Below, piece by piece: positions 10,731 to 14,572 of a DNA stretch of 40,637 nt. Within the stretch, counting starts at the first letter, position 1. Each line of letters starts with the position of its first letter. This DNA comes from Roseovarius sp. GTDB lineage: Bacteria > Pseudomonadota > Alphaproteobacteria > Rhodobacterales > Rhodobacteraceae. Location: positions 1-40,637 of the forward strand of contig JADQCC010000236.1 of the NCBI GenBank assembly GCA_016278295.1. Reading direction: 5' to 3'. The notes beneath the pieces are model-generated. The model saw nothing but the letters and a program-made list of their open reading frames with translations, ran no database searches and was not told the origin of the DNA. The position numbers were made by a program, and so were the translations under genes.

Positions 10731-11471
10731 ATGACCAAGCCCTTTCTCGTCCTGCAATTGCGCCCCGAGACCGAAGCCGCCGACGACGAATTCGCCGCGA
10801 TCCTGCGAAAGGGCGGGTTGGCAAACGATCGCGTGCGCCGCATCCGCCTCGATCAGCAATCGCTGCCCGCCGACCTGCGGCTCGCCGACCATGCCGGGGT
10901 GATCGTCGGCGGCGGCCCCGGCTGCGTGAGCGACGCGACCGACGAGAAATCCCCCGCCGAGGCGCGCATCGAGGATCAGGTGCTGTCGCTCATGCCCGCG
11001 ATCACCGGGGGCGACCTGCCGTTTCTCGGCTGCTGCTACGGCATCGGCATCCTCGGCAAGCATCTCGGCGGAGACGTGAGCAAGCGCGCACATGGCGAGC
11101 CGGTGGGCACCGCCGAATGCGCCCTCACCGGCGACGGTGCCGACGACCCGCTGCTTGCCGGGCTGCCCGACCGATTCAGCGCCTTTGTCGGTCACAAGGA
11201 GGCGTTGCAGGAGTTGCCAGCGGGCTGCACCCATCTCGTCGCCTCGCCGACCTGCCCATTCCAGATGGTGCGCTACGGGCGCAACGTCTATGCCACGCAG
11301 TTCCACCCCGAGGCTGACGCCGCCGGGTTCGAGACGCGCATCCGCATTTACCGTCACAAGGGCTATTTCGCCCCCGAGACGGCCGATGACCTCGTCGCCA
11401 TGTGCCGCGCCGCGGATGTCCACGCGCCCGAGCACATCCTGCGGAATTTCATCATCCGCTACGGCGGCTGA
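10731..11471 (+). CDS. Class I glutamine amidotransferase (GMP synthase-like GATase domain protein)
   Basis: LPFLGCCYGIGIL nucleophile elbow, ATQFHPEAD catalytic His-Glu. Confidence 0.88.
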   Translation: MTKPFLVLQLRPETEAADDEFAAILRKGGLANDRVRRIRLDQQSLPADLRLADHAGVIVGGGPGCVSDATDEKSPAEARIEDQVLSLMPAITGGDLPFLGCCYGIGILGKHLGGDVSKRAHGEPVGTAECALTGDGADDPLLAGLPDRFSAFVGHKEALQELPAGCTHLVASPTCPFQMVRYGRNVYATQFHPEADAAGFETRIRIYRHKGYFAPETADDLVAMCRAADVHAPEHILRNFIIRYGG

Positions 11472-12054
11472 AGACCGCCATCTGACTCGCGCCGCCCAGG
11501 TCGGGATGCGCGCCGCAGATGTCATGAAACATCACCGTATAGCCATTGCGTGCCGCCACCCCCCGCCCCCAGCGGGCAAAGCGCCCCCGGTCCCATTCGA
11601 AATGGTGGTCGGGATGGCGAAAGCGGTGCGGCGGCACACCGAGCACGGGGTTGTACTCGGCATTGGGCGTGGTCACGATCACGTGGCCAGGCCGCATCGC
11701 GGCAAACACCGCACGTTCCAGCCGGTTGATATCGGCTTGCGGCAGGTGCTCGATCACCTCCACCAGGCAGGCGCAGTCATAGCCCGCCAGATTGGGGTGC
11801 GCCTGCGTGAGCGAGGCACAGGCAAGCTGCACCCGCGCGCCCCCCGCAGGCACCCCGGCCAGCCGCGCCTGCGCGCGCCGGAGCCGTTCGGCGTCGATCT
11901 CGACCCCGGTGACCCGCCCGATCCCCGCCACGCCCGCCAGCCGCAACATCAGATCGCCATCGCCACAGCCCAGGTCGAGCACGGTGCGCGCGCCGGTCTC
12001 TGCCACGGCTGCAACCACGGTCGCCAGCCGTTCCTCGTGCAGCGCCGTGGTCAT
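11452..12054 (-). CDS. Hen1-type RNA 3'-terminal ribose 2'-O-methyltransferase (standalone methyltransferase domain)
   Basis: LHEERLATVVAAV...VLDLGCGDGDL (SAM motif), EVIEHL plus DHHFEW (four Hen1 metal ligands E-x2-E-H...H), VTTPNAEYN, C-terminal PDLGGASQMAVF. Confidence 0.88.
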   Translation of the reverse strand: MTTALHEERLATVVAAVAETGARTVLDLGCGDGDLMLRLAGVAGIGRVTGVEIDAERLRRAQARLAGVPAGGARVQLACASLTQAHPNLAGYDCACLVEVIEHLPQADINRLERAVFAAMRPGHVIVTTPNAEYNPVLGVPPHRFRHPDHHFEWDRGRFARWGRGVAARNGYTVMFHDICGAHPDLGGASQMAVFSRRSG

Positions 12055-12707
12055 GGTCCCGGCACCCGCAGGAGCGCCACGTCCTTGCGCGGTACCTCGC
12101 AGACCCAGCCGCGCGCGGCAGCGAGGGTGGCAAAGGTCTCGGCACGGTAGAACACGACATGGGTGGGGTCCTTGCGGTAATGCCAGCCGCCGAACCGCGC
12201 ATCGTCGGTCTGGAAGCAGGTCATCACCGCCAGCCAGCCACCGGGACGCAGCATCGCGCCCAGCCGATCGAATTCCTCCGCCGGACGATGGAAATGCTCG
12301 ATCACCTCCGTGCAGGTAATGAAATCATGGGAATCGGCCAGCGGCGCGGGATCGGGGGCATAGAAGGGATCAAAGAGCGCCATCTCGTGCCCCGCATCGC
12401 GCAGCATCGCGGCCAGCGCAGGGCCCGGGCCGCAGCCATAATCGAGCCCCCGCGCACCGGGCGCGAGCCGCGCAAGAAGCGGCGAGGCGAGGCGGTCGAG
12501 AAACCGGCGGTAGCCGGGATCGTCCACCGCGTTCTCGTGCCGGTCATACTCGGCGCGCTCGACCGCCGCGCCCGGATAATGGCCGGGGTTCATCCCGCGC
12601 GCGCCGCAGGCGTCGCAGCGCCAGTATCCCTTGCCGCCGAACACCCCGAAATCCGCGAGCCTCTCGGCGCGGCAGACGGGGCAGCGGGCGGGCAAGAGGG
12701 ACTGCAT
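12051..12707 (-). CDS. Class I SAM-dependent methyltransferase with N-terminal CxxC...CxxC zinc-ribbon
   Basis: CPVCRAERLADFGVFGGKGYWRCDACGARGMNPGHY; GLDYGCGPGPALAAML SAM motif; TCTEVIEHFHRPAEEFDRLGAMLRPGG; 4-nt overlap with the downstream Hen1 gene. Confidence 0.87.
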   Translation of the reverse strand: MQSLLPARCPVCRAERLADFGVFGGKGYWRCDACGARGMNPGHYPGAAVERAEYDRHENAVDDPGYRRFLDRLASPLLARLAPGARGLDYGCGPGPALAAMLRDAGHEMALFDPFYAPDPAPLADSHDFITCTEVIEHFHRPAEEFDRLGAMLRPGGWLAVMTCFQTDDARFGGWHYRKDPTHVVFYRAETFATLAAARGWVCEVPRKDVALLRVPGP

Positions 12708-12824: not shown

Positions 12825-13859
12825 ATGGCGCGGCGCACCCATTTCGAGATCGGCGGCCAGCGGGTCGCACCGGGCACCCGCGCCCGCGTCGATATCCCCG
12901 TGAGCCAGCTGTCCAATCACACGCCGGTGCACCTCTCGGTCGAGGTGATCCACGGGCGGCGCAAGGGGCCGGTGCTGTTCGTCTCGGCGGCGATCCACGG
13001 CGACGAGGTGATCGGGGTCGAGATCGTGCGCCGCCTGCTGCGCGCCACGCCGCTGCGGTCGATGGCGGGCACGCTGCTGGCGGTGCCGATCGTCAACACC
13101 TTCGGTTTTCTCAACCATTCTCGCTACCTGCCCGACCGGCGCGACCTCAACCGCGTCTTTCCGGGCCTCTCGGCAGGCTCGATGGCCTCGCAACTGGCGC
13201 ATATCTTCATGGAAGAGGTGGTACGCCGCTCCGACGTGGGGATCGACCTGCACTCGGCGGCGATCCACCGCTCCAACCTGCCGCAGATCCGCCTCACGCC
13301 GGACAACGAGCGGCTGGCCGATCTCGGCGCTGCCTTCGGTGCGCCGGTGATGATGGAATCCAGCCTGCGCGACGGCTCGCTGCGCATGGCCGCCGAGGAG
13401 GCTGGCGTCGACGTCCTGCTCTACGAGGGCGGCGAGGGGCTGCGCTTCGACGAGGCGGCGGCGCGCGCCGGGGTGGCCGGCACGCTGCGGGTGATGCGCC
13501 GGCTGGGCATGATCGCGGCCAAGGGCGTGCCGCGGGCCAAGGCACGGCCGGTACGCGCACGCACCTCGTCGTGGTATCGCGCGCCGCGCGGCGGGCTGTT
13601 TCGCGGCTTCGTGGGGCTTGGGGATGCGGTCGCGCCGGGCACCGTGCTGGGGGCGGTGGCAAATGCCTTCGGCGATGTCGAGAGCGAGATCGTCAGCGAC
13701 CAGACCGGCATCCTGATCGGACGCACAAACATGCCGGTGGTCTACGAGGGCGACGCGCTCTTTCACGTCGCCGAAACCGCCCGCGCCGCGGCCGCCGCCG
13801 AGGGTATCAGCGCCCATCTCGACGTGGGCGCGCTCTTTGACGAGGATGAGATCATCTGA
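12825..13859 (+). CDS. Succinylglutamate desuccinylase/aspartoacylase (AstE/AspA, M14-like) family protein
   Basis: LFVSAAIHGDEVIGVEIVRRLL, LDLHSAAIHR, C-terminal barrel-like segment. Confidence 0.9.
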   Translation: MARRTHFEIGGQRVAPGTRARVDIPVSQLSNHTPVHLSVEVIHGRRKGPVLFVSAAIHGDEVIGVEIVRRLLRATPLRSMAGTLLAVPIVNTFGFLNHSRYLPDRRDLNRVFPGLSAGSMASQLAHIFMEEVVRRSDVGIDLHSAAIHRSNLPQIRLTPDNERLADLGAAFGAPVMMESSLRDGSLRMAAEEAGVDVLLYEGGEGLRFDEAAARAGVAGTLRVMRRLGMIAAKGVPRAKARPVRARTSSWYRAPRGGLFRGFVGLGDAVAPGTVLGAVANAFGDVESEIVSDQTGILIGRTNMPVVYEGDALFHVAETARAAAAAEGISAHLDVGALFDEDEII

Positions 13860-14572
13860 TGACCGACGGACGCCGCACCACCGACCTCAACGACGTGGCC
13901 TTTGCCGTGATCCGCGCGCGGATGCGGCTGCATTTCCTCTTCACGCCCAAGGGCGACCGGCAGGCGATCAAATACTTCGTCATCGGCCACCCGCGCTGCG
14001 GCACCACCTCGCTGCACAAGCTGTTCGAGGCCAACGGATTGCACAGCTTTCACGATTCCAGGGACTGGCAAACCGGGCGTTACGACGCGTTCTCTGATTT
14101 CGGGCAGGTGCGGCCGGTGGCGGCCTACGACCGGACCTATCCCAACGCCCGCTTCATCCTGAATTTCCGCCCCCTGCGCCCCTATCTCGTCAGCATCGCC
14201 GCACATCACCAAAAGGTGTTCAGCGTGCAGAACTTCATCAACGAGGCGCACCGCCGCGCCGCCTGGTTCGCCTGGGTGCTGGCGCATTTCGAGGGGCGGC
14301 GCGATTTCATGGCCGTGAATATCGAGGCCGAGGGCGCACTGCCTGCCGTGGCAGATCATTTCGGCCTCGCCCGCCCCGAGCCCGAAGGCGGCAGCCGTCA
14401 CAACATGGGCCAGCGCCCGCGCCTGGCCGAGAACGCCGCCAATATCGAGACCGCGCTCGACGCGCTCGGCCTGTCCGACGAGGCCGCGCAGGGCGTGCTC
14501 GTCTCAAGGCTGCACGGGCCGCGGCAGGCCGCACTGTCCCGCGCGCGGGACAGCGTGCGCGTGGTGGAGTGA
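13859..14572 (+). CDS. Sulfotransferase-like P-loop protein
   Basis: KYFVIGHPRCGTTSLHKLFEANGLHSFHDSRDW (PAPS-binding-like P-loop), PNARFILNFRPLRPYLVS; stop/start TGATG overlap with the preceding gene. Confidence 0.72.
   Translation: MTDGRRTTDLNDVAFAVIRARMRLHFLFTPKGDRQAIKYFVIGHPRCGTTSLHKLFEANGLHSFHDSRDWQTGRYDAFSDFGQVRPVAAYDRTYPNARFILNFRPLRPYLVSIAAHHQKVFSVQNFINEAHRRAAWFAWVLAHFEGRRDFMAVNIEAEGALPAVADHFGLARPEPEGGSRHNMGQRPRLAENAANIETALDALGLSDEAAQGVLVSRLHGPRQAALSRARDSVRVVE

Follow-up and report, generated by a model that had tools for sequence, protein, structure and literature searches.

A Pnkp-free variant of bacterial Hen1 in Roseovarius with a recurrent partner methyltransferase

Can a bacterial Hen1 methyltransferase do its work outside the Pnkp repair complex? 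In published accounts bacterial Hen1 is always encoded in an operon with Pnkp or belongs to the Pnkp1-Rnl-Hen1 complex, which is known from ten species (PMC4411300), and a 2006 survey contained no proteobacterial members (PMC1397878). The question is raised by a stretch of 40,637 nt from a Roseovarius genome (the whole of which we call the window), where a sequence-only reading had recognized a Hen1-type methyltransferase domain standing alone. We show here that the protein is a real and conserved variant of bacterial Hen1 that occurs without Pnkp and recurrently has a second methyltransferase as its partner. No paper on such short Hen1 proteins was found in the literature searched, which covered few subscription journals (an earlier description is thus possible).

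The gene runs from 12054 to 11452 on the minus strand (no strand had been given before) and encodes a protein of 200 aa, its assignment combining the open reading frame with profile, PDB, fold and tree evidence. All motifs quoted in the sequence-only reading are indeed present in this frame: VLDLGCGDGDL (residues 25-35), EVIEH (99-103), VTTPNAEYN (127-135), DHHFEW (149-154) and PDLGGASQMAVF (184-195). Open frames on the opposite strand (plus; e.g. 11092-12150) were discarded as antisense artefacts of the high G+C content. Homologues start at a conserved M-T-(T/S)-x-x-H-x-x-R, which argues that the short N-terminus is genuine; the long N-terminal extensions of the homologues L072, L066, L052 and L080 turned out, on reading, to be spurious open frame. 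Comparison with three Roseovarius orthologues points to purifying selection (dN 0.12-0.23, dS 0.62-1.26). A class I glutamine amidotransferase gene (10731-11471, plus strand; PRK07567 above cut-off) is convergent with hen1, and the 3' ends of the two genes have about 20 nt in common. An Rfam scan around hen1 and a tRNA scan of the whole window gave no match.

The identity of the domain is well supported. The NCBIfam model bacter_Hen1 (TIGR04074) is matched with 197.5 bits (E=2.9e-58), restricted to model positions 264-462 of 462 and short of the curated cut-off, which is 340 bits over the full length of 462. The UbiG profile (TIGR01983) yields 33 bits and does not reach its cut-off of 102.95. 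Hen1 chains in the PDB are matched at E=1.6e-40 with the single sequence and at 1.6e-56 with a profile, the top seven sequence matches being Hen1 or HENMT1/HEN1. Likewise, the eleven best PDB fold matches of the predicted structure (pLDDT 85.5, though below 50 in loop 143-145 close to the active site) are all Hen1/HENMT1/HEN1 (E 1e-22 to 1e-17), and the next fold follows at 8e-11. The profile search and the structure comparison suggested along with the sequence-only reading thus bear out its family assignment.

The catalytic residues agree with this. In plant HEN1, Glu796, Glu799, His800 and His860 bind the metal together with the 2'- and 3'-OH of the RNA (PMC10781085). They correspond to E99, E102, H103 and H150 of the Roseovarius protein, which satisfies the pattern E-x-x-E-H plus the H of D/G-H-x-F-E-W. 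This tetrad is invariant in all 69 standalone and 22 two-domain sequences and is also found in human HENMT1. The same holds for R9, T129, P130, N131, N135, R146, F152, E153, W154, W162 and Q191. By profile, predicted fold and catalytic residues, the protein is therefore a Hen1-type 3'-terminal 2'-O-methyltransferase domain, with the activity being predicted.

The ~265-aa N-terminal domain is missing: the 200 aa begin at a conserved M-T-T. That only the methyltransferase domain is present, as had been claimed, follows from the alignment to TIGR04074 at 264-462 only, from the conserved short N-terminus and from the finding that no Hen1-N domain is matched elsewhere in the source genome (3.18 Mb in 325 contigs, 88.8% complete). 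The Roseovarius gene is no isolated case. In a scan of GTDB genomes we analysed the best 80 of 543 loci; among these best 80, an upstream extension of at least 255 residues (typically about 265) is seen in 15, whereas 64 are short and one more (L049) is truncated where its contig ends. The short proteins (~200 aa) make up one side of a tree branch with support 100/97 that recurs in all bootstrap trees; as the tree (from which L121 was left out) is unrooted, neither the short nor the two-domain form is implied to be the older. Human HENMT1 falls on the two-domain, Pnkp-linked side of this branch, where its own long branch makes the placement only a caution. The proposed closeness to eukaryotic Hen1 consequently stands for domain architecture and is not supported beyond it, since human HENMT1 groups with the Pnkp-linked class.

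Of 399 evenly drawn Pseudomonadota genomes, 6 contain two-domain Hen1 and 5 (counting the source genome) short Hen1, so that the standalone class is about as frequent in this phylum as Pnkp-linked Hen1. Among 40 relatives ten genomes carry Hen1, namely 9 of the 24 Roseovarius (including the source genome) and one genome of another family. The single plasmid copy of standalone Hen1 is named just 'methyltransferase domain-containing protein' by NCBI; the class scores below the NCBI naming cut-off. A viral contig from IMG/VR (L120) encodes a distant relative of the domain (25%), and no copies were found in a phage collection; with one such distant match and none in phages, a phage system is not indicated. 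Taken together, the sequence comparisons describe standalone Hen1 as a distinct and widespread bacterial class apart from two-domain Hen1.

As had been stated for the window, no Pnkp is encoded there, and the whole-genome search suggested at the time likewise retrieved neither Pnkp nor Hen1-N from the source genome with its completeness of 88.8%. All 10 genomes with two-domain Hen1 contain full Pnkp, against 0 of 38 with the standalone form (Fisher p=1.5e-10, uncorrected for shared ancestry). Given this absence from all 38, incompleteness of the source genome is no longer a concern. As for ligases, RtcB is missing from all 10 Hen1-positive relatives, and the T4-type RNA_ligase family (PF09414) has no match in G000 or 15 congeners (with G000, G001, G005, G010 and G015 as the Hen1-positive genomes in this search), although a divergent Rnl could escape the model; the absence of ligases covers known families only. 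A link to Argonaute was rejected because no Piwi domain occurs among the 40 relatives, all 10 Hen1-positive ones included.

A feature that had gone unmentioned is the gene directly upstream of hen1 on the same strand. It runs from 12707 to 12051 (minus) and encodes a class I SAM methyltransferase of 218 aa with a predicted N-terminal zinc ribbon (C9, C12, C31, C34). Its TGA stop and the ATG start of hen1 share the four nucleotides ATGA (12051..12054, minus), by which translational coupling is predicted. Among the matches listed, about 23 further loci have a relative of this gene directly adjoining short hen1, and 16 of these show the identical 4-nt overlap. The pairing is seen in about a third of the standalone loci, in several phyla; no relative of the partner was listed beside a two-domain hen1. 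The pairs come from Rhodobacterales, Rhizobiales, Nitrosomonas (where the genes are 212 nt apart), Burkholderiaceae, Chromatiaceae (where the order is reversed, with the partner downstream) and one Acidobacteriota genome. Five of the 40 relatives have the partner, all five being Hen1-positive (p=4e-4 for the 40, p=0.012 for the genus alone), with the genes apart in one. In the nearest relative (G015 contig 55; L031:2252-2892) the partner is split over two frames, by a frameshift or a sequencing error, and hen1 is intact. Distances of partner and Hen1 correlate over 21 loci (Mantel r=0.71, 0 of 5000 permutations), as shared ancestry of the hosts would also yield.

The partner is not strictly required, as it is absent from 18 of 38 short-Hen1 genomes and is found without any Hen1 in 34 of 388 Pseudomonadota genomes (about 9%), mainly outside the window's class. 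Its ExxEH motif (E134, E137, H138) and D180-P-T-H183 are invariant in 13 sequences, and the nearest solved folds of its predicted structure (pLDDT 91) are sugar C-methyltransferases (TM about 0.6). In Hen1-less Pseudomonadota outside the window's class (L144-L155), genes of the partner family adjoin what we take to be YihI-like, DUF2489-like and HemN-like genes (in several genomes presumably yihI and hemN) and are flanked on their other side by a presumed cytochrome c-like gene. This neighbourhood is a possible clue to the original function of the family.

Other neighbours of hen1 were considered as parts of the system. Peroxiredoxin, aldehyde dehydrogenase, AstE-like genes and SulP plus Usp were all rejected since they recur within clades or in few loci only. 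An AstE/AspA-type deacylase (12825-13859, plus strand) and a sulfotransferase-like gene (13859-14572, plus strand) adjoin hen1 as a conserved pair in several genomes of Roseovarius. Genes for a SulP anion transporter and for a universal stress protein are found in the vicinity of standalone hen1 in alpha-, beta- and gammaproteobacteria, and also on a plasmid of Comamonas (L044, L046, L052, L084, L089, L097, L098, L156).

What, then, does the protein do? Because Pnkp is missing from its own genome and from the 38 standalone genomes, action independent of Pnkp, as the sequence-only reading had proposed, is the likeliest interpretation. The protein is probably a metal-dependent 2'-O-methyltransferase of RNA 3' termini, by which RNA ends would be marked or protected, often together with its partner. 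As a Mn/Mg-dependent SAM methyltransferase of the Hen1 superfamily, it would bind the 2',3'-diol of an RNA 3' terminus through the metal and then methylate the 2'-OH. The methylated end (of a cleaved RNA or a small RNA) would be shielded from 3' exonucleases and tailing, with no ligation junction being fixed and the Pnkp repair complex not being involved. As the protein lacks the Hen1 N-terminal domain and the genomes searched contain no recognizable ligase, the process probably does not include ligation. The zinc-ribbon methyltransferase, presumably co-produced here and in about a third of relatives, may act in the same pathway as a physical or functional partner of Hen1; its contribution might, as a guess, be substrate recognition or a second modification. 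A tentative and rather doubtful extension is that both enzymes form a widespread two-methyltransferase module separate from all known RNA repair, in which domain-only Hen1 and its partner jointly mark RNA 3' ends in a manner resembling eukaryotic small-RNA methylation but from a separate Hen1 lineage. If RNA 3' ends are indeed methylated outside repair, bacteria would possess a free-standing 3'-end protection mark.

Several other explanations have to be weighed against this. Cleaved tRNA might still be methylated before sealing, with kinase, phosphatase and ligase provided by unrelated or divergent genes elsewhere. Pnkp1-Rnl-Hen1 offers a precedent for a hen1 far from its repair genes (PMC4411300), and phosphatases of the calcineurin type that weakly resemble the phosphatase region of Pnkp are encoded in many standalone genomes. 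Those matches mostly span about 90 residues and appear generic, however, and together with the absence of RtcB from the 10 Hen1-positive relatives and of RNA_ligase from those searched, the lack of Pnkp in all 38 standalone genomes and the missing N-terminal domain they make repair through an unrecognized ligase unlikely. We also regard it as improbable that the enzyme methylates a small molecule, be it a nucleoside, a nucleotide or another diol, with the partner perhaps catalysing the other of two steps. UbiG-like small-molecule enzymes are relatives of the catalytic domain of HEN1 (PMC1397878), hence the substrate may have changed even with an unaltered active site, and the sugar C-methyltransferase folds closest to the partner point the same way. 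Nonetheless, the scores differ largely (33 bits for UbiG, whose cut-off is 103, and 197 bits for Hen1), R146, FEW, W162 and Q191, beyond the metal site, are as invariant as in RNA-active Hen1, and the gene neighbourhood is not that of a biosynthetic cluster.

A role in defence, by which tRNA or other RNA would be protected from ribonuclease toxins through methylation of the cleavage product or target end, might be suggested by the ribotoxin resistance that Hen1 methylation confers in repair systems (PMC4411300), and the patchy distribution and the plasmid copy would suit an accessory trait. In Roseovarius, however, hen1 sits among ordinary chromosomal genes, the phage collection holds no copy, and the sole PADLOC match (a weak mad2, 9e-15) was rejected as a defence assignment as it lies over a generic methyltransferase region; we thus consider this role quite improbable. 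Finally, the patchy presence in 9 of 24 Roseovarius genomes (source included) might reflect a functionless remnant of a decayed Pnkp-Hen1 cassette that has lost its N-terminal domain and partner gene. This is hardly credible for a single separate class (rather than many independent truncations) that keeps a conserved start, an active site invariant in 69 sequences, an overlapping partner gene and the signature of purifying selection.

The Roseovarius protein, for which we prefer the reading of Pnkp-independent marking of RNA ends, can be compared with several known systems. UbiG/UbiE-type small-molecule methyltransferases share the class I fold and an ExxEH-like motif, but their profile stays far below cut-off and their fold match trails that of Hen1 by more than ten orders of magnitude. 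As in Roseovarius, the Hen1 of the Pnkp1-Rnl-Hen1 complex (Capnocytophaga, PDB 4xrp) is not adjoined by repair genes; with 436 aa its chain is longer, its similarity is only distant (E=2.6e-5), and no Rnl-type RNA ligase was found in the Roseovarius genomes searched. Eukaryotic HENMT1/HEN1 (PDB 5wy0, 4xcx, 3htx) also works without Pnkp, and its chemistry is expected to be identical to that of standalone Hen1, whereas the human sequence belongs with the Pnkp-linked bacterial class and no Piwi/Argonaute was found in the relatives searched; what standalone Hen1 shares with eukaryotic HEN1 in particular is thus its architecture alone. With the Hen1 of Anabaena and Clostridium thermocellum (PDB 3jwh, 3jwg), the Roseovarius protein has the methyltransferase fold, SAM motif, metal tetrad and flanking active-site residues in common; it differs in lacking the ~265-aa N-terminal domain and a Pnkp in its genome, and in lying on a separate side of the tree, in a class that is frequently accompanied by a second methyltransferase instead.
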